Source of the DNA: Hafnia alvei | GTDB lineage: Bacteria; Pseudomonadota; Gammaproteobacteria; Enterobacterales; Enterobacteriaceae | DNA length: 64,000 nucleotides | Assembly: GCF_900095695.1 (NCBI RefSeq) | Contig: NZ_FMIQ01000055.1 | Location: 62,001 to 126,000 of the forward strand | Direction: 5' to 3' | In this document: positions 4,979 to 13,809 of the stretch, in pieces | Position numbering within the stretch: position 1 is the stretch's first letter | Layout: every line of letters begins with the position of its first letter | Notes under the pieces: generated by a model | The model's input: only the letters and a program-made list of their open reading frames with translations | What the model was told of the DNA's origin: nothing | The model's database searches: none | Made by a program: the position numbers and the translations under genes

Positions 4979-5005
4979 GACGATCCCTCAGAACGGGGGA
5001 TCGTC
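4979..5005 (+). terminator. Hairpin downstream of yeeA
   Basis: GACGATCCC and GGGATCGTC form a 9-bp perfect stem around a nine-base loop, starting two bases after the yeeA stop codon. The T tract is poor (TGTAGTTTG), so termination efficiency is uncertain. Confidence 0.6.
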
Positions 5006-5017
5006 TGTAGTTTGGGC

Positions 5018-5056
5018 AGTAACATTTGATAGTAACATTTGATAGCAAGATTCGAT
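5018..5056. repeat. 13-bp tandem direct repeat upstream of yhfZ
   Basis: AGTAACATTTGAT occurs twice in direct tandem (5018-5043), followed by a degenerate third copy, AGCAAGATTCGAT. It lies in the 245-base gap between yeeA and yhfZ. It could be a regulator-binding array or simple slippage; nothing in the sequence decides. Confidence 0.5.
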
Positions 5057-5219
5057 CGTGAGTGGGTGTCAGATTTTACGGTTCCCGCCATCCCGCTAAC
5101 GCCTTTCATCTACAATATTTGTTCATTTTGTGACTCTATTCGCTTTTTAGCTTATTGGTGCTTGCCAGTAATTTTCAATTTAATGAATATATAAAAATTC
5201 AAGAAAATGAAGATTAATT

Positions 5220-6122
5220 ATGAGCCGTAGTTTTATCAAGAAAGAGGGCGTCGCGCAGAGCAGTTTAGCGCGTTACTTATTGGGTGAGAAATCCGGTAAC
5301 CGTTTGAAAACCATCGATGAGCTCGCTAGCGAGTGTGGCTTTTCCGTGGGGTTGATACAGGCGGCGTTAAAGACTCTTGAGAAAGCCGGTGCGGTAGCGG
5401 TGGAGCGTCGTGGGCGCAATGGCAGCTATCTCGTCAGCATGGATAACAAAGCCTTATTGGCTTTTGCTGATATTGGTAACGTCGTCTGTGCGATGCCACT
5501 ACCTTACACGCGGCTCTATGAAGGCTTAGCCAGTGGGCTAAAAGCGCAGTTCGATGGAATTCCGTTTTATTACGCCCACATGCGCGGTTCTGACGTCCGC
5601 GTCGAGTGTTTACTGAACGGAGTTTATGATTTAGCGGTTGTCTCCCGATTAGCCGCGCAAAGCTATCTTGAAAAAGACGATGTGCGGATGGTGTTGGAGC
5701 TCGGCCCACATACGTATGTGGGTGAGCACAAATTGATTTGCCGAGCGGGTAACCCACCGATTCAGCGTGTGGGTCTGGACCCTCGCTCAGCCGATCAGCG
5801 CATCATGACAGATGCTTACTTTGTGGGTCAGCCGGTTGAAATACTTGATGTGCCTTACCACGAATGTCTGACGCGTATCGCTAAAGGTGATATTGACGCG
5901 GTGATCTGGAACGTCACCAACGATGCGGATTTAGCGGCATATGGCCTAGTAGCCAAACCGTTGGCAGGCGATCCTCGTTTCACCGAGGCTTCAGAGGCCG
6001 TGGTGTTAACGCGGGCAGATGATATTCCTATTCAACAACTGCTGCGTACCGTGGTGGATAAAAAAGAGCTGCTTGCCCATCAACAGCGTGTGCTGGCAGG
6101 TGTTCAGGAACCGAGTTATTGA
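5220..6122 (+). CDS. yhfZ: YhfZ, GntR-like regulator with solute-binding-like sensor domain
   Basis: This 300-residue protein begins with a winged helix-turn-helix (about residues 15-70; TIDELASECGFSVGLIQAALKTLEKAGAV), then continues into a periplasmic-binding-protein-like domain (about 80-290). That matches YhfZ, the first gene of the E. coli yhf operon. It probably senses the pathway's substrate and controls the operon. Family architecture is known; ligand is not. Its stop codon overlaps possible upstream starts of yhfY, so the two are likely translated together. Confidence 0.88.
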   Translation: MSRSFIKKEGVAQSSLARYLLGEKSGNRLKTIDELASECGFSVGLIQAALKTLEKAGAVAVERRGRNGSYLVSMDNKALLAFADIGNVVCAMPLPYTRLYEGLASGLKAQFDGIPFYYAHMRGSDVRVECLLNGVYDLAVVSRLAAQSYLEKDDVRMVLELGPHTYVGEHKLICRAGNPPIQRVGLDPRSADQRIMTDAYFVGQPVEILDVPYHECLTRIAKGDIDAVIWNVTNDADLAAYGLVAKPLAGDPRFTEASEAVVLTRADDIPIQQLLRTVVDKKELLAHQQRVLAGVQEPSY

Positions 6123-6142
6123 TGCTATCTCAAGAGGGCAGT

Positions 6143-6499
6143 ATGGAAGAGCGGCTAAATCTGCTGTGTCAGGCAGGAATCATTGATAAGGATATTTGTG
6201 ACGGTCTGCTGAGCGTCGTCGTGCAGCTTGAAACCGAGTGGTCAATACCCGTTCGCAATGAACAGGGCGAAATGGCGATCACGCATATGGCGAACGCGCT
6301 GATGCGTAGTCGTCGTGGTGAAGAGATCGGTCCTTTGGACCCCGACCTAATGGACGAAATGGTGAGCTCGGAAACCTGGCCGCAGTTACAGCCAATTCAT
6401 AAAGCGATGCTGGCTCCATTCGATGTCCAGCTCCATCCGAATGAAGAGGGATATCTGTTGGCCAATTTGTTCAGTCTATGGATGGTGAGCAGGGGCTAG
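6143..6499 (+). CDS. yhfY: YhfY, small PRD-type protein
   Basis: This gene encodes a 118-residue protein shaped like one PTS regulation domain (PRD), with conserved histidines in the ITHMANALMR and PIHKAML regions. PRDs are phosphorylated by PTS proteins, so the operon may sense carbohydrate status, although no PTS transporter is encoded in it. The ATG at 6143 is preferred because AGAGGG precedes it closely; TTG 6119 and ATG 6122 are in-frame alternatives inside the yhfZ end. A terminator-like hairpin follows. Confidence 0.82.
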   Translation: MEERLNLLCQAGIIDKDICDGLLSVVVQLETEWSIPVRNEQGEMAITHMANALMRSRRGEEIGPLDPDLMDEMVSSETWPQLQPIHKAMLAPFDVQLHPNEEGYLLANLFSLWMVSRG

Positions 6500-6526
6500 C
6501 AGGCGTAGCGAACGTGAAGTGTCTAT

Positions 6527-6565
6527 AACTTAAATATTCAAAAAAATGATGATTTAAGTTTTTTT
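6527..6565 (+). terminator. Terminator-like hairpin between yhfY and yhfX
   Basis: AACTTAAAT and ATTTAAGTT make a 9-bp perfect stem around a 16-base A-rich loop, and five further T residues follow. It splits the regulatory pair (yhfZ, yhfY) from the enzyme genes. It could act as a partial terminator or as an operator palindrome for YhfZ. The stem is AT-rich, so read-through is likely. Confidence 0.6.
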
Positions 6566-6595
6566 ATCATCAGCATGGAATTGAGAGGCAAGGGC

Positions 6596-7771
6596 ATGTT
6601 TATTGGAGCACTCAAGGCACAAAACCCGGCACTGATTCAGGCCGCTCGTGAGCTATGGCAGCAAGGCGTTATTTTGCCAGATACCTGGGTTGTCGATGTC
6701 GATCAGGTCATGGAGAACGGCCGTCTATTGCTTGAAGCGGCATCTAGGCACGGCATGACTCTCTATCTGATGACCAAACAGCTTGGACGCAATCCGTGGC
6801 TGGCGAAAAAACTGATCGAGCTCGGCTTTCATGGCACCGTGGCCGTGGATTTTAAAGAAGCTCGTATGTTGCGCCATGCCGAGGCGCAGGTTTCCCATGT
6901 CGGTCATTTGGTTCAGTTGCCTAAGTGCCAAGTGTTTGAAAGCGTGAATTTAAATACAGAGATGATCACTGTATTTTCGCTTGAGAAGGCTCGTGAAATA
7001 TCTGCTGCCGCGCTTCAAATTGGGCGTGTCCAGCCCATTATGCTCAAAGTTTTTGCCGACGACGATAAGTTATACCCCGGGCAAGAGGCTGGCTTTCCTC
7101 TTTCTGCACTTGATGACGTTGTTGAGGCGATTGGGTCGCTTTCAGGGGTAAAACTCACCGGTCTAACACATTTTCCTTGCCTGCTGTGGGATGAAGAACA
7201 GCAGCAGACATTGCCAACGCCCAATTTGCATACGTTGTTGCATGCTCGCGATCGACTGCGCAAGCACGGCATTGATATTACTCAAATCAATGCGCCATCG
7301 GCTTCAAGCTGCAGCACTTTACCCTTGCTCGCCGGTTTCGGTGTCACCCATGCAGAGCCGGGACACGCGCTAACCGGCACTATTCCGGCAAACCAACATG
7401 GCACTGAGCCTGAGCGCATCGCGATGCTCTATCTCACTGAGGTTTCTCATCAATTTCAGGGCAACAGTTACTGCTTTGGCGGTGGTTACTACCGCCGTGG
7501 TCATGCTCAACATGCGCTGGTTTACCCGCCACTAAGCGATCACGCGCTGCCAGCAAAACTTTTGCCTATCGATGACAGCAGCATTGATTACCACATTCCG
7601 CTGGCAGGTGAGTTTCCGGTTGGTAGTCCGGTGGTGATGTGTTTTCGCACGCAGATATTTGTTACGCGCAGTGACGTTGCGTTGGTATCGGGCATTTCTC
7701 GCGGTATGCCAGTGCTCGAAGCGCTGTATGACAGCCTCGGCAACCCGGTCCCTGGAGGCCCACATGAATAA
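6596..7771 (+). CDS. yhfX: YhfX, alanine-racemase-like PLP protein
   Basis: The 391-residue product matches E. coli YhfX (387 aa) closely. It has the fold-type III PLP barrel of alanine racemases, with the cofactor lysine in [12 protein letters not shown] (near residue 63). Other landmarks are HFPCLLWDE, the INAPSASSC segment, and [12 protein letters not shown]. It is expected to racemise or otherwise transform an amino acid, but the substrate is unknown. The ATG at 6596 matches the E. coli N-terminus and follows GAGAGG. It overlaps yhfW by eight bases. Confidence 0.92.
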
Positions 7772-8999
7772 GTTTGTGGTTGTGGTAATAGACAGTTTTG
7801 GCGTGGGCGCGATGGACGACGTGTCGCAGGTCAGGCCACAGGATATCGGAGCTAACACCTGCGGGCATATTTTGCAGCATTTTCCGCAGCTTCAGTTACC
7901 TACGCTGGAAAAACTGGGTTTGATTAACGCACTTGGCTATCAAGTGGGCGCGATGAAGCCGTCAACGGAAGCCGTTTACGGCACGGCGGCTTTGCAGCAT
8001 GAGGGGGGCGACACTTTCATGGGGCATCAGGAAATTCTCGGTACGCACCCTAAGGCCCCGTTACGCATGCCTTTCTCGGCGGTTATCGATGATGTCGAGC
8101 AGGCGCTAATCGCCGATGGTTGGCAGGTCGAACGTATCGGCGATGGTTTGCAATATCTGTGGGTGAATCAAGCGGCGGCCATTGGCGACAATCTCGAAGC
8201 CGATCTCGGGCAGGTATTCAACATAAGTGCCAATCTTTCAGCTATCTCGTTCGACGCGGTGTGTTCTATTGGCAAAATCGTACGCCGCTGCGTGCAAGTG
8301 GGGCGCGTGATTGCCTTTGGCGGTTTGCTGGAAAGTAGTCAGCAAATTTTGGATGCCGCCGAAGAAAAACAGGGCCAGTTTATCGGCATTAATGCTCCAC
8401 GCTCAGGTGCTTATCACCGTGGTTTTCAAGTCGCGCATATGGGATTTGGCGTGGACGCTAGCGTTCAGGTGCCGAAAAAACTGCATGATGCAGGCATTAA
8501 GACCGTGCTGGTGGGAAAAGTGGCCGATATTGTCCTCAACCCGCACGGTGTGAGCTATCAGAACTTGGTGGATAGCCAGCAAATAATGGATATCACTTTG
8601 GCGGAAGTGAGCAAGCCGGGGAGTGCGTTTATCTGTACTAACATTCAGGAAACGGACCTTGCTGGACATGCTCAGGACGTTGAGCGCTATGCCGAGCGGT
8701 TACAACTGGTAGATAAAAATCTTGAACGCCTGATGCAAGCCATGGATCAAGGAGACTGTCTGGTCGTGATGGCGGATCACGGCAACGACCCGACGATTGG
8801 CCACAGCAAACATACGCGTGAAAACGTTCCGTTGCTGGTCTGGCAGCCGGGCATTGTCCCGGCGCAGCTGGGGGCCAGAGAAACGCTCTCTGATGTTGGG
8901 ACGACCGCGTGCGACTACTTCAATGCAGCTGCGCCACAGAACGGCACTTCATTCCTTTCGTTGCTACATACCAATGACAACCGAGGCAACCATGACTGA
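7764..8999 (+). CDS. yhfW: YhfW, phosphopentomutase-like metalloenzyme
   Basis: This 411-residue member of the alkaline-phosphatase superfamily resembles phosphopentomutase. The metal-binding [11 protein letters not shown] is at the N-terminus, [13 protein letters not shown] holds the likely phospho-acceptor threonine, and [18 protein letters not shown] supplies the C-terminal metal ligands. Mutase activity on a sugar or other phosphate is inferred; its true substrate is unknown. The start at 7764 follows CTGGAGG. It overlaps both neighbours by eight bases, indicating tight coupling. Confidence 0.92.
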
Positions 9000-9882
9000 G
9001 CAAAAACGCATTGATGCATCGGGCTACACCTATGCCCACGAGCATCTGCATATCGACCTATCGGCGTTTAAAAACAACATTGATTGCCGCTTGGATCAGT
9101 ACGATCTGATTTGTGCGGAGATGAAATCGCTCTATGGGCAGGGGGTACGCAATATCATCGAAATGACTAATCGATACATGGGGCGTAATCCGCAATTTAT
9201 GCTGGATATCATGCGAGATACGGGGATGAACGTCATGGCCTGTACCGGTTATTACCAGCATGATTTTTTCCCCGCTCATGTTGCTATCACCAGCGCAGAA
9301 AAGCTGGCGAAAGAGATGATCGACGAAATCGAAATCGGTATTGACGGCACTGAGTTGAAAGCGGGAATTATCGCGGAAATCGGTTCCAGCGTTGACGTGA
9401 TAACCGACGTTGAAGCTAAAGTTTTTGCCGCTGCCGCGATAGCCCATCGTGAAACGGGGCGCCCGATCTCTACCCACACCTCGTTTAGCACTATGGGCCT
9501 TGAGCAACTAACGCTGCTAAAAAACCATGGCGTAGACCTTTCGCGCGTTGTCGTCGGCCATTGTGATCTGAAAGACAATCTCGACAACATTCTACGCATG
9601 ATCGAACAGGGTGCTTATGTCCAGTTCGATACCATCGGAAAAAACAGCTATTACCCAGACGAGAAGCGCGTGGCAATGCTGCAAGAAATTGCCAAACGCG
9701 GACTGCTCGACCACGTGATGCTTTCCATGGACATCACTCGCCGTTCCCACCTGAAAGCGAACGGTGGTCTTGGTTTTGACTATTTGCTGACAACGTTTGT
9801 GCCTTTGTTGCAGGAGGCTGGCTTCACTCAGGCCGACGTTGATTTGATGTTACGTGACAACCCCTCTGTCTTCTTTAAATAA
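8992..9882 (+). CDS. php: Phosphotriesterase homology protein (Php/YhfV)
   Basis: This 296-residue TIM-barrel amidohydrolase matches E. coli Php (292 aa). The metal ligands are visible: HEH in [10 protein letters not shown], the histidines in [10 protein letters not shown] and [10 protein letters not shown], and the aspartate in LSMDITRRS. In GIIAEIGSS a glutamate takes the place of the carboxylated lysine of true phosphotriesterases, a known feature of the Php group. It probably hydrolyses an ester or lactone in the yhf pathway. The start at 8992 overlaps the yhfW end by eight bases. Confidence 0.93.
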
Positions 9883-9891
9883 GGATTTCCC

Positions 9892-10245
9892 ATGAAAAAG
9901 ATCGGTGTTGCTGGCTTACAGCGTGAACTCATGAAAAAAACTATCGAAACCGCCGCACCAGGCTGCTTTGAAGTATTTATCTATAACGACATGGAAGCTG
10001 CGATGAAGGTGAAATCCGGCCAGCTTGATTACTACATTGGCGCTTGTAATACCGGTGCCGGAGCGGCGTTGTCCATTGCCATTGCGGTGATTGGTTATAA
10101 CAAAAGCTGCACAATTGCTAAACCGGGCATTAAGGCGAAGGAAGAGCAGGTCGCCAAAATGGTTGCGGACGGCAAAATCGCCTTTGGCCTGTCGGTTGAA
10201 CATATCGAACATGCCATTCCGATGTTGATTGCTCATTTAAAATAA
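9892..10245 (+). CDS. yhfU: YhfU, DUF2620 family protein
   Basis: The 117-residue protein corresponds to E. coli YhfU. It contains a glycine/alanine-rich central helix (ACNTGAGAALSIAIAVIG) suggestive of a small-molecule-binding loop, but no recognised catalytic motif and no signal peptide. It sits nine bases after php and ten before yhfT, so it belongs to the same transcript. Its function is unknown; an accessory role to the neighbouring YhfT transporter is only a guess from adjacency. Confidence 0.88.
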   Translation: MKKIGVAGLQRELMKKTIETAAPGCFEVFIYNDMEAAMKVKSGQLDYYIGACNTGAGAALSIAIAVIGYNKSCTIAKPGIKAKEEQVAKMVADGKIAFGLSVEHIEHAIPMLIAHLK

Positions 10246-10255
10246 AGGCAGCGCT

Positions 10256-11557
10256 ATGGATTTTTATATTCAAATAGTCGTGGTCGCCTGTCTGACAGGG
10301 ATGACGGCGCTGCTGGCGCACAAGTCTGCAGCCGTCTTCCACGACGGGATTCGACCGATTTTGCCTCAGCTGATTGAGGGGAATATGAACCGTCGTGAGG
10401 CGGGGAGCATTGCCTTTGGTCTCAGCATTGGCTTTGTCGCATCGGTGGGTATTTCGTTCACCTTGAAAACCGGTTTGCTCAACAGCTGGCTGCTGTTTTT
10501 ACCGACGGATATTCTCGGCGTGTTGGCTTTTAATGGTGTTATGGCATTTGGGTTGGGGGCGATATGGGGCATTTTGATTCTCACCTGCCTGCTGCCGGTA
10601 AACCATCTGCTGACGGCGCTGCCAGTGGATGTACTGGGCTCGCTGGGCGAACTGAGCTCCCCGGTGGTTTCTGCTTTTGCCCTGTTCCCTCTGGTGGCTA
10701 TTTTCTATCAGTTTGGCTGGAAGAGTAGCCTGCTCGCTGCGGTTGTGGTGCTGATGACGCGGGTTATCATCGTGCGTTACTTCCCGCATCTGAACCCAGA
10801 ATCTATTGAAATTTTTGTCGGTATGATAATGCTGCTGGGCATCGCGATTACTCTGGATCACCGTACTCGCGGGGAGCGTTCGGATGACGATGGGCAGTCG
10901 GTTTTTGAGGAGCGCACTTCGCGTATTATCAAAAACCTACCCTATATTGCGATTGTCGGTGGGCTGATTGCCGCCGTTGCCAGCATGAAGATTTTTGCCG
11001 GTTCAGAGGTGTCGATCTTTACGCTTGAGAAGGCGTATCACGCGGGTCTAGATCCTGCGCAGTCACAGACGCTGATTAATCAGGCGGCGTTGGCGGAGTT
11101 TATGCGCGGGCTGGGCTTTGTGCCGATGATTGCCACCACGGCATTGGCGACCGGCGTGTATGCGGTAGCCGGTTTCACCTTCGTGTTTGCCGTTGGGTAC
11201 CTGATCTCTAACCCATTAATTGCCTTTGTAGCGGGGGCGCTGGTGATTTCCGCTGAAGTGCTGTTGCTGCGTTCTATTGGTAAGTGGTTGGGGCGTTACC
11301 CTTCGGTGCGTAATGCTTCGGATAACATCCGTAATGCAATGAATATGTTGATGGAAATGGCGTTGCTGGTTGGCTCGATCTTCGCCGCGATCAAAATGGC
11401 GGGCTACACCGGTTTTACCATCGCGGCTGCGCTTTATTTCCTCAACGAGTCGTTGGGTCGTCCGGTGCAAAAAATGGCTTCCCCCGTCGTGGCGGTGCTG
11501 ATAACCGGTATTGTGTTAAACATTCTCTTCTATTGCGGCCTGTTCGTTCCGGTCTGA
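10256..11557 (+). CDS. yhfT: YhfT, polytopic inner-membrane transporter
   Basis: A very hydrophobic 433-residue protein with about 11-12 predicted membrane segments, the same length class as E. coli YhfT. A hydrophilic loop (about residues 195-220; DHRTRGERSDDDGQ) divides the two halves. It is presumably the importer for the operon's substrate. No characterised family signature is visible. It follows yhfU by ten bases. A GC-rich hairpin lies between it and yhfS. Confidence 0.9.
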   Translation: MDFYIQIVVVACLTGMTALLAHKSAAVFHDGIRPILPQLIEGNMNRREAGSIAFGLSIGFVASVGISFTLKTGLLNSWLLFLPTDILGVLAFNGVMAFGLGAIWGILILTCLLPVNHLLTALPVDVLGSLGELSSPVVSAFALFPLVAIFYQFGWKSSLLAAVVVLMTRVIIVRYFPHLNPESIEIFVGMIMLLGIAITLDHRTRGERSDDDGQSVFEERTSRIIKNLPYIAIVGGLIAAVASMKIFAGSEVSIFTLEKAYHAGLDPAQSQTLINQAALAEFMRGLGFVPMIATTALATGVYAVAGFTFVFAVGYLISNPLIAFVAGALVISAEVLLLRSIGKWLGRYPSVRNASDNIRNAMNMLMEMALLVGSIFAAIKMAGYTGFTIAAALYFLNESLGRPVQKMASPVVAVLITGIVLNILFYCGLFVPV

Positions 11558-11570
11558 TCCCTTGCTCTTG

Positions 11571-11593
11571 CCTGCCGCGACGTTTGCGGCAGG
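11571..11593 (+). other. GC-rich hairpin in the yhfT-yhfS junction
   Basis: CCTGCCGC and GCGGCAGG pair perfectly around a seven-base loop. No T run follows and the yhfS ribosome binding site lies just downstream. It could stabilise the upstream mRNA or lower yhfS expression, rather than terminate. Confidence 0.6.
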
Positions 11594-11612
11594 CTTTGAT
11601 GGAGAAAACAGT

Positions 11613-12698
11613 GTGAAAACCTGGCCTTTGCAGAGCCTGACGATGGAGCAGGCGCAGAATAAGCAGTTCCGGCTGGTGGATATTATCTGTCGCCACTTTC
11701 CCGGCAGTGACTTTCTCAACGCGGGTGATTTAGGTCTGGTTCCAGGTCTAAATCAGCCACAAATGACGCAACGGGTGGAAGCCGTTCTCGCTGATTTTTT
11801 TGCCGCACCGAAGGCTGTTTTAGTGCAGGGGGCGGGTACTGGGGCAATTCGCAGCGGTCTGGCCGCTGTATTGCGGGCAGGCGACACGCTTCTTATTCAT
11901 GATGCGCCGCTTTATCCCACCACGGCGGTTATTGCTGAGCAAATGGGCTTGCTGCTTGTTCGTGCCGATTTCAATCAGCTTGATGAAGTTGCCCGTGCGA
12001 TTGAGCAGCATCGCCCGCAGGCGGCGCTTATCCAACACACCCGTCAGAAAATTGATGATTCTTACTCCCTGCGCGAAGTCATCGCCTGTTTTAATCACTA
12101 CGGATTGTCTTCGCTTACTGACGATAATTACGCGGTAATGAAGGTCGAGAATATTGGCTGTGAATGCGGTGCGACCTTGTCAACTTTTTCGTGTTTTAAA
12201 CTCTTTGGCCCTGCCGGCGTTGGGGTTGTGGTCGGTGATGAGAACGCGGTGAATGCGGTGCGTAAAAGCATGTACTCCGGCGGTAGCCAGATACAAGGGA
12301 TACAGGCGATGGAGGCGTTGCGAGGTTTAGTTTTTGCGCCAGTGATGCACGCGGTGCAGGCGCAGGTGAATGATCGTCTGGTGGCTGAGCTGCAAAGCGG
12401 GGCAATCCCACAGGTGAAACAGGCGTTTATTGCTAATGCGCAGTCCAAAGTTCTGCTGGTGGAGTTTCATGAACCAATTGCGGAAAAAGTGCTGGCGCGT
12501 GCGAAAAAACTAGGCGCGTTGCCGTATCCGGTTGGCGCAGAGTCTAAGTACGAAATTCCGCCGCTGTTTTATCGAGTGTCTGGCACTTTTCTTCTGTCGG
12601 ATCCAACGCTTCAACAACGCATGATCCGTATTAATCCAAACCGCAGCGGGGCACAGACGGTTTTGCGTATTTTGCAGGAAAGCTGTCGCTTGTTATAG
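11613..12698 (+). CDS. yhfS: YhfS, PLP-dependent aminotransferase/lyase-like protein
   Basis: From the GTG at 11613 the product is 361 residues, exactly the length of E. coli YhfS, and begins MKTWPLQSLT in step with it. GGAG lies nine bases ahead. It is a fold-type I PLP enzyme: the cofactor aspartate is in LTDDNYAVMK and the Schiff-base lysine in STFSCFKLFGP. The reaction is unknown. With YhfX it gives the operon two PLP enzymes, pointing to an amino-acid-like intermediate. It is the last gene before a bidirectional terminator. Confidence 0.92.
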   Translation: MKTWPLQSLTMEQAQNKQFRLVDIICRHFPGSDFLNAGDLGLVPGLNQPQMTQRVEAVLADFFAAPKAVLVQGAGTGAIRSGLAAVLRAGDTLLIHDAPLYPTTAVIAEQMGLLLVRADFNQLDEVARAIEQHRPQAALIQHTRQKIDDSYSLREVIACFNHYGLSSLTDDNYAVMKVENIGCECGATLSTFSCFKLFGPAGVGVVVGDENAVNAVRKSMYSGGSQIQGIQAMEALRGLVFAPVMHAVQAQVNDRLVAELQSGAIPQVKQAFIANAQSKVLLVEFHEPIAEKVLARAKKLGALPYPVGAESKYEIPPLFYRVSGTFLLSDPTLQQRMIRINPNRSGAQTVLRILQESCRLL

Positions 12699-12710
12699 AG
12701 CGTAGTAAAA

Positions 12711-12736
12711 CGCCCGATGCGTTTATCCATCGGGCG
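12711..12736. terminator. Bidirectional terminator between yhfS and proX
   Basis: CGCCCGATG and CATCGGGCG form a perfect 9-bp stem with an eight-base loop. On the minus strand it is followed by TTTTAC, and on the plus strand CTTTTT lies about 13 bases beyond. It serves both convergent operons. Confidence 0.85.
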
Positions 12737-12762
12737 CAAGATACGCGCTTTTTAGTGCAAAC

Positions 12763-13809
12763 TTAGTGTTTTGCAGCCTGCTGTGCGGCATCGATCCAAC
12801 CATCAAACGTGGCCTGATGGGCTTTAATCCAGCCGTTTACATGGCGCTCAATATCCGCTTCTGAGTTTTCACCTTGATGCATACGCAGGTTTTGCGCATT
12901 AACGTCAGCAATTGGCAATTTCATTTCAGCAAATAATTTTGCCGCCGCTGGGTTTTTCTCGGCGAAGGTTTTGTTAGCTACGATCTGCATATTGTTAACT
13001 GGGAAACCGTAGTTAGCACCGTTTGGCAGCTTGGTATCAACATCTTTCAGGCTGCCCGGTAAGGCTGAGAACGGCACCTGTAGCCAAACAACATCACGCC
13101 CAGGTTTGAGCACGTCGCTCACCCAATACGGCGTCCATGTGTAGTAAAACACCGGTTTGCCTTCTTTAAAGCGAGTCATGGTGTCGGCAATCAACGCTGA
13201 ATAGTTGCCTTGATTATGTTCAACCGTATCATTCAAACCGTAGGCTTTGAGCTGATAGTTGATGGAGGCTTCACATCCCCAACCCGGCGTACAACCGGCT
13301 AAATCTGCTTTGCCGTCGTTGTTGGTATCAAACAGCTTGGCAATTTTGGGATCTTTGAGCTGCTCAATATTGGTGATGTGATACTGATCGGCGGTTTTTT
13401 TGTCGATCAAATATCCCTGCGCCGCCCCTGTTACGTACTGGCCTTCACGGTAGAATTTTTTATCGCCACCGGCGCCGTTATACATATCAGAGTGAAGCTG
13501 ATCCCAATTCACCGCGAGGAAGGTGGCATCACCCGCCGCAACGGAAGTGTACGCCACGTTGTAATCCACTTCTTTGGTTGGCTGTACGTCATAGCCTAAT
13601 TTTGCTAGCGCCTTGCTCACCAGTTGGGTCTGGAAAGTCTCTTCGGCAATACTGCTCTGAATTGGCTGTACAGACACGCCTTTGCCCGGCAATTCTGTTG
13701 CCTGAGTGGAGAAGGAGATGGAAAGCGTACCGAAGGCCAGAGCGGTAACGGCAAGCATAGATGCGATACGTTGTTGAGTTTGGTTATATTGTTTTGTTTG
13801 TGATGTCAT
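12763..13809 (-). CDS. proX: ProX, periplasmic glycine betaine/proline betaine-binding protein
   Basis: The 348-residue precursor has a long N-region, a signal peptide ending near ATQATEL, then the ProX solute-binding domain. It delivers betaines to ProVW under osmotic stress. The aromatic-rich motifs WNWDQLHSD-like, CTPGWGCE and [10 protein letters not shown] line the betaine pocket in ProX. E. coli ProX is 330 aa; the extra residues are at the N-terminus. AGGAATATTC precedes the ATG at 13809. A 158-base gap with a strong hairpin separates it from proW. Confidence 0.95.

Follow-up and report, generated by a model that had tools for sequence, protein, structure and literature searches.

The orphan yhf operon in Hafnia alvei and its possible link to the phosphotransferase system

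The yhf operon (yhfZYXW-php-yhfUTS) is a large orphan operon of Escherichia coli. Crystal structures exist for relatives of four or more of its proteins, yet no role is named for it among the open-licence papers listed for its genes: their titles and abstract beginnings assign neither role nor substrate to the yhf genes, and many of the matches are unrelated homonyms; a protein table of L. rhamnosus, in the available part of PMC7513527, includes YhfX, DUF2620, PRD, phosphotriesterase-related, transketolase, and transaldolase entries. The operon is analysed here in a stretch of 64,000 nucleotides from Hafnia alvei (assembly GCF_900095695.1, contig NZ_FMIQ01000055.1, positions 62,001 to 126,000; hereafter the window), where this already known gene set is present with the same eight genes, order, and strand as in E. 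coli and with a YhfT 88% identical. In the E. coli genome compared, the operon lies between trpS and frl, whereas in the window it lies between yeeA and proX. We read the system tentatively, at somewhat below even confidence, as a route, linked to the phosphoenolpyruvate:sugar phosphotransferase system (PTS), for taking up and breaking down a glucosamine-containing compound, perhaps by way of a phosphorelay from a His of YhfY to a Cys of YhfU that feeds YhfT.

In ribose-5-phosphate isomerase B (RpiB), a His opens the ring, basic residues bind the phosphate, and a catalytic Cys sits on a loop. RpiB and LacAB have the fold and the loop Cys in common with YhfU, which differs from them in that it is shorter, is without an invariant His or Arg, and is encoded beside a membrane-protein gene. 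The EF_0829-EF_0839 (AHA_3910) cluster resembles yhf in its lone PRD protein, small RpiB-like Cys protein, membrane proteins, amidohydrolase-superfamily enzyme, and pyridoxal phosphate- (PLP-) dependent enzyme. It differs in having two membrane proteins without detectable relation to YhfT, and DgaE/DgaF-type enzymes with a PRD/EIIA regulator instead of YhfX, YhfS, YhfW, and YhfZ. With the scheme proposed for yhf, the Salmonella dgaABCDEF system shares a PLP enzyme and PTS-dependent uptake, in its case of an amino-sugar acid; unlike it, dga uses a classical mannose-family PTS permease, and YhfT, YhfU, and YhfY are no part of dga as described in the available text of two articles (PMC9529869, PMC4987338).

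The eight open reading frames (ORFs) are open and complete, all on the + strand, between positions 5220 and 12698 of the window:

5220..6122, + strand: yhfZ, GntR-like winged-helix regulator with a YhfZ_C domain (family match; PDB 2ozz relative)
6119..6499, + strand: yhfY, stand-alone PRD-like protein with an invariant His56 (profile and conservation)
6575..7771, + strand: yhfX, alanine-racemase-N (fold-type III) PLP enzyme, Lys68 invariant (family match; PDB 4kbx)
7764..8999, + strand: yhfW, phosphopentomutase-like metalloenzyme (family match, conserved residues)
8992..9882, + strand: php, phosphotriesterase-like hydrolase of the amidohydrolase superfamily (PDB 1bf6, 4lef)
9892..10245, + strand: yhfU, DUF2620, predicted RpiB-fold protein with an invariant Cys52 (model, profiles, conservation)
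10256..11557, + strand: yhfT, polytopic membrane protein, presumed permease (family match)
11562..12698, + strand: yhfS, fold-type I PLP enzyme (family match; PDB 4j8l)

An earlier note on this DNA had described a complete operon with tight overlaps, intact active-site motifs, and no defined substrate. The completeness is borne out, as is the lack of an assigned substrate within the literature covered above. Seven of the eight proteins match Pfam or NCBIfam families above cut-off or under the expected name (YhfZ_C 273 bits, YhfX-like_C 125, PRK12383 “phosphopentomutase” 669 for YhfW, PRK09875 573 for Php, DUF2620 168, YhfT 581, and YhfS-like_C 159). The PDB relatives of YhfX, YhfS, Php, and YhfZ are all titled “uncharacterized,” “homology,” or “hypothetical” protein. 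Tight packing holds for yhfX/yhfW and yhfW/php, which overlap by 8 bp, and for php-yhfU-yhfT, with gaps of 9-10 bp; it does not hold for yhfY-yhfX, with at least 75 bp in between. The true starts of yhfY (about 6143) and yhfS (about 11613) are probably later than those of the longest ORFs.

The active-site motifs are intact in that their key residues are invariant across non-redundant sequence sets. In Php, H11, H13, E124, H157, H185, and D242 are each present in 62/62 sequences, which gives the HxH, bridging Glu, two His, and Asp that we take to be the metal-site pattern of phosphotriesterase-like amidohydrolases. These superfamily ligands are common to Php and the phospho-furanose lactonase family NF045706, whose cut-off of 630 bits lies far above the 92.4 bits scored by Php; membership of that family is thus not indicated. 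Lys68 of YhfX, presumably the PLP lysine, is kept in 79/79 sequences, and Lys213 and Asp187 of YhfS are invariant in a set of 41. YhfW carries the phosphopentomutase pattern: position 84, presumably the nucleophile, is Thr in 46 and Ser in 12 of 58 sequences, and D10, D298, H302, D338, H339, and H350, which we take to form the metal site, are invariant.

The first line of evidence for the proposed scheme is the fold of YhfU. Its structure was predicted from a 35-sequence alignment (A3) with a pLDDT of 96, and the model has the RpiB fold. Foldseek ranks 1-18 are all RpiB/LacAB proteins (E 1.8e-4 to 4.2e-3, nine at 0.001 or below), and VIA ranks 1-23 are all of the RpiB type (best Z 13.6 over 108 residues at 2.0 Å), the first other fold following at Z 7.6. 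Against a profile of RpiB proteins from relatives, YhfU aligns with E 1.4e-5 and probability 80, and Cys52 falls on the RpiB loop Cys; searched against PDB sequences, its profile matches an RpiB-type protein at only E 0.12. Cys52 is present in 54/54 sequences and Lys41 in 53/54; G8, D33, A36, G50, C52, G57, A59, G68, F98, and G99 are invariant in that set, which holds no invariant His or Arg. The profile alignment places no YhfU His opposite the RpiB QHN motif. Of the RpiB/LacAB hallmarks, YhfU thus has the loop Cys and, in the predicted model, the fold, and is without the ring-opening His and basic residues.

YhfU is almost always encoded with YhfT. Six-frame profile searches covered 80 scan loci, one Cetobacterium plasmid locus, and 20 Bacilli loci; the best 80 of 193 relatives were kept from the profile search of relatives' contigs, so locus counts lean to close relatives; contig ends truncate some loci, and the Vibrionaceae set includes two overlapping pairs. 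Clusters of this kind are found in Enterobacterales, Vibrionaceae, Fusobacteriota, and Bacillota. All eight genes are present in 32/48, 0/24, 2/2, and 4/7 of the scanned loci of these groups, respectively, and in 18/20 of the Bacilli loci. yhfS is absent from all 24 Vibrionaceae loci and from those of Yersinia, Ewingella, Serratia, and some further Enterobacterales; yhfW is absent from 8/9 Yersinia loci. In a count that also takes in L008-L012 in part and L210-L217, yhfU lies immediately upstream of yhfT in 111/115 YhfT matches (median gap 15 bp), three of the exceptions being second pieces of a split match and the fourth a lone YhfT. Random subsets of the genes in relatives, named in the earlier note as what would speak against its proposal, were looked for and rejected: yhfS and yhfW are dispensable and the subsets are non-random, with the yhfU-yhfT pair as the constant core, usually with yhfX and php.

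Several reduced arrangements were also seen. The lone YhfT (L010:9042-10352), with no YhfU detected, belongs to a 2.5 Mb genome of the order. At L212:8859-10565 a yhfU-yhfT pair stands without any other yhf gene in 19 kb, as a minimal module, and adjoins a gene that looks by eye like an alginate lyase. Two Photobacterium contigs (L077, L083) carry a second yhf cluster reduced to yhfZ, php, yhfU, and yhfT.

YhfY provides the second line of evidence. PRDs usually have a regulatory role: the PTS controls regulators by phosphorylating His residues in these domains. The window YhfY has no Pfam match, and TIGR03582 stays below threshold (E 1.2e-4); PRD (PF00874) is matched by 38/40 members of the YhfY family at E up to 1 (best 8.7e-13), the window copy not being among them. 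Leu16, His56, Arg63, and Glu109 are invariant, the last three in 73/73 sequences, and at family level YhfY therefore combines the PF00874 match with a conserved His. That His sits in a PRD-like protein, with no EIIA family among the 25 families listed for YhfY members, and beside the PRD these members show no obvious regulator domain for DNA or RNA binding. HPr- and EII-mediated phosphorylation of PRD-type regulators is described in the available part of PMC4987338.

The genes next to yhf in other genomes extend the possible PTS link. An HPr gene is found at 6/27 Bacillota yhf loci: it overlaps yhfW or lies within 51 bp of it in five (L087, L203, L204, L205, L207) and 1.06 kb away in L206, and an EI gene follows in two (L203, L206). 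Since each of these six genomes has between 3 and 11 HPr matches in total, as well as other EIIC genes, the yhf-linked HPr is an extra copy. Another HPr-domain match, upstream of yhfZ in L214, lies in what looks by eye like a fru operon; it was judged coincidental and was not counted. In Vibrionaceae, a PTS EII-type gene group with DUF7916 adjoins yhf (EII identity by eye), DUF7916 being present in 7/24 loci, two pairs of which overlap. A glucosamine-6-phosphate deaminase-type (NagB) gene is present in 7/27 Bacillota loci and in 2/24 Vibrionaceae loci, directly after yhfW in V. comitans and 4 kb away in one; all three NagB proteins tested score above the TIGR00502 cut-off.

The genome of the window itself holds a second orphan system of the same plan, an EF_0829-type cluster (L149, G000:C74:22000-38000) that encodes a PRD protein, SFCGS, DUF4312, DUF4311, DUF4310, an EF_0837-type amidohydrolase, a DgaE-family PLP enzyme, a KDGP aldolase, and a PRD/EIIA regulator. 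SFCGS (PF14272) is found in 50/99 genomes searched of the window's family. The L149-type PRD protein and YhfY are homologues, with their His residues aligned (hhalign E 6e-8, probability 95), and the SFCGS protein is RpiB-like (E 7.2e-5, probability 63). The L149 aldolase scores above its equivalog cut-off (392 against 300 bits), whereas the DgaE-like protein satisfies only the subfamily model of the DgaE family, with 370 of the 600 bits required by the stricter equivalog; the L149 substrate may therefore differ from D-glucosaminate. According to the available text of PMC9529869, the Salmonella D-glucosaminate route starts with PTS uptake that gives the 6-phosphate, the substrate of the ammonia-lyase DgaE. 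Should a 6-phosphate be required by the L149 enzymes as well, one would expect phosphorylation by their transporter. A small HPr-type gene was seen just past the L149 regulator gene, on the opposite strand.

Upstream of yhfZ, three short elements are conserved:

5129..5143, + strand: conserved CRP-like element TGTGA-N6-TCNC (14 aligned upstream regions)
5174..5187, + strand: predicted YhfZ operator copy 1, TTCA-N6-TGAA (conservation)
5198..5211, + strand: predicted YhfZ operator copy 2, TTCA-N6-TGAA (24 bp downstream of copy 1)

The TGTGA and TC of the CRP-like element are invariant in 14/14 upstream regions and its last C is kept in at least 90%; the whole pattern is missing in L022 and L039. 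The exact operator pair is found in 28/45 Enterobacterales loci including the window, which are 28/32 of those with yhfS, and three of the four remaining yhfS-bearing loci carry it at the same place with 1-2 mismatches. It occurs once in the window (0 in 100 shuffles) and at one place in the whole 4.86 Mb genome. This conservation suggests that the paired palindrome is the YhfZ operator and that the CRP-like site serves CRP control.

In the scheme that we infer, from YhfZ binding at its operator and the direction of phosphotransfer to each enzymatic step and the substrate, YhfZ would repress the operon at the paired palindrome and CRP would probably activate it. YhfT would be a membrane permease with YhfU as its soluble partner, and the imported compound would be small and glucosamine-containing, with an acylated or aminoacyl amino sugar as the likeliest candidate. 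YhfY, as a lone PRD protein, would take a phosphoryl group from HPr on His56; Cys52 of YhfU may then receive the group and hand it to the substrate, as in group translocation, or the phosphorylation of YhfY may gate the system. Php would next hydrolyse an ester, lactone, or amide bond, YhfX, together with YhfS where present, would act on the amino-acid-like part, YhfW would move the phosphate, and the sugar part would exit as glucosamine-6-phosphate or a close analogue.

The phosphorelay is proposed because it explains the constant yhfU-yhfT pairing, the invariant His and Cys, the extra HPr and EI genes, and the parallel cluster. A number of results weigh against it. The fold of YhfU is that of an isomerase and not of a known EIIB: YhfU has no EIIB match in Pfam up to E 1, and EIIB rows in VIA score Z 7.4 or lower. 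YhfT, modelled with a pLDDT of 84, matches only PF10797 above cut-off, with no EIIC model among its matches up to E 1. Its model has no Foldseek match at E 0.001 or below; its weak structural neighbours are only VcINDY symporters (VIA Z 7.2, below the level that counts for a helical protein), and no EIIC row is among the matches listed, which excludes nothing. Since the known EIIB and EIIC families are not matched, the system may work like a PTS permease outside the known PTS families. Compared directly, YhfU and SFCGS match only weakly (probability 7.9, E 0.0044), and homology of YhfT with DUF4310 or DUF4311 is not established (hhalign probability below 0.2). HPr is a minority feature in Bacillota and lies beside yhf in 0/48 Enterobacterales, 0/24 Vibrionaceae, and 0/2 Fusobacteriota loci; the five Bacilli cases may be mutually related, and the L203 HPr, possibly a truncated or misread gene, matches over positions 2-54 of 81 only. 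NagB is absent from 20/27 Bacillota, 22/24 Vibrionaceae, and 48/48 Enterobacterales loci, and the three NagB proteins tested fall below the stricter NF001682 equivalog. The PRD of YhfY could also be regulatory only.

This last point belongs to the main rival explanation, in which YhfU would act in the cytosol as an enzyme resembling sugar-phosphate isomerases, YhfT would carry an anionic substrate by ion coupling, and YhfY would be a PTS-sensing regulatory PRD only, so that isomerase, phosphomutase, and lactonase-like steps act on a phosphorylated sugar without group translocation. It is a serious possibility that we consider on balance doubtful. The RpiB fold with its loop Cys is kept, some active-site-like residues (Lys41 and the invariant Asp33) remain, the best structural match of YhfT, a weak one, is to VcINDY anion symporters, and PRDs are regulatory as a rule; however, YhfU is without the invariant His or Arg expected from the roles of these residues in RpiB, yhfU and yhfT are nearly always neighbours, as expected of subunits, and YhfY members show no evident nucleic-acid-binding regulator domain to accompany the PRD. 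The earlier note had proposed that two PLP enzymes, a mutase-like and a phosphotriesterase-like enzyme, and a transporter import and break down an amino-acid-like compound with an ester or phosphate. Its reading of the genes as one catabolic unit is supported, and the two PLP enzymes and the phosphotriesterase-like hydrolase with intact active sites suit it, as do the acid-phosphatase-type genes that adjoin yhf in 4/48 Enterobacterales scan loci and in L217. The extra HPr and EI, the PRD protein, and the NagB partners make such a pathway without a PTS link improbable: a phosphorylated amino sugar, rather than a simple amino-acid ester, is what the PTS links, the RpiB fold, the NagB partners, the operator, and the SFCGS system point to. 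Detoxification or clean-up of a damaged metabolite would suit the patchy distribution (YhfT in 43/295 genomes of the family), but we regard it as very improbable, as a dedicated presumed permease, a regulator with a conserved operator, and a CRP-like site fit nutrient use better.

If the relay of the PTS-linked reading is real, it would represent a new class of PTS permease in which an isomerase fold has been recruited as phosphocarrier. A wider and rather unlikely extension is that YhfT, YhfU, and YhfY, together with the SFCGS, DUF4310-4312, and PRD proteins, form an unrecognised superfamily of phosphoenolpyruvate:sugar phosphotransferase permeases, with a IIA-like lone PRD, a IIB-like RpiB-fold Cys protein, and YhfT or DUF4310/4311 as IIC. 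Such a superfamily would be present in E. coli and, when SFCGS is counted, in about half of the sampled family. New in this analysis are the predicted RpiB fold of YhfU, the lone PRD of YhfY with its invariant His, the HPr, EI, and NagB neighbours, the parallel cluster, and the paired operator.

The operon lies in a block that is absent from some close relatives:

5003..12769, no strand: block of about 7.77 kb that congeners G160 and G162 lack (alignment with both genomes)

The block is carried by the window genome and by a same-species genome (G161, 99%), while G160 and G162, the two other congeneric genomes searched, match the flanks only; there the yeeA and proX flanks are contiguous, about 30 bp apart, as an empty site. 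The GC content is 52.0% in the block compared with 46.7-47.4% in the nearest flanks, which is a weak argument for acquisition because a value of 51.3% is found elsewhere in the window. By DNA identity the nearest relative (L014) is of another genus, at best 79% identical over most of the block, and has it at a third genomic site; for comparison, proXW pieces are 71-78% identical in 12 genomes. The window holds no tRNA and no Rfam match at gathering level. The earlier observation that the location differs from E. coli is confirmed: at many other loci the upstream neighbour is trpS (28 loci) and the downstream neighbour a cysG-like gene (27; names partly by eye). The further claim that yhf moves as a unit agrees with its one-piece presence or absence and with the same genes in four bacterial groups. 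The block was probably acquired, although gain is not established and loss in the two congeners is possible.

YhfT occurs in 6/148 genomes of the order and in 26/398 genomes of the class of G449 (24 over cut-off), and G197 and G200 have a second, divergent YhfT copy. In E. coli, the block finds an at least partial megablast match in 3867/5426 genomes; at that sensitivity no match covers 80% of it.

Further accessory genes accompany yhf. A family with the motif FLDSLRDFESGINP lies beside it at 9/80 scan loci (7 distinct places, since two pairs overlap) and at L217, for example at L077:934-3249, L043:4850-5764, and L217:10772-11698; a carbohydrate-binding module 5/12 is part of the Photobacterium form (L077), the short form has no Pfam match, and the family has no PDB match. 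An amidase-like protein of 343-351 residues (L204:13362-14405, L007:10294-11325) belongs to Bacilli and Fusobacteriota clusters; its gene is in or beside yhf at 8 loci, upstream of yhfZ in L199, and it has only sub-threshold Amidase matches and weak PDB matches. Directly upstream of yhf at L191:1997-7189 there are, by eye, ABC sugar-transporter, PIG-L deacetylase-like, and exo-muramidase-like genes, which hint at a cell-wall amino sugar as a possible source.

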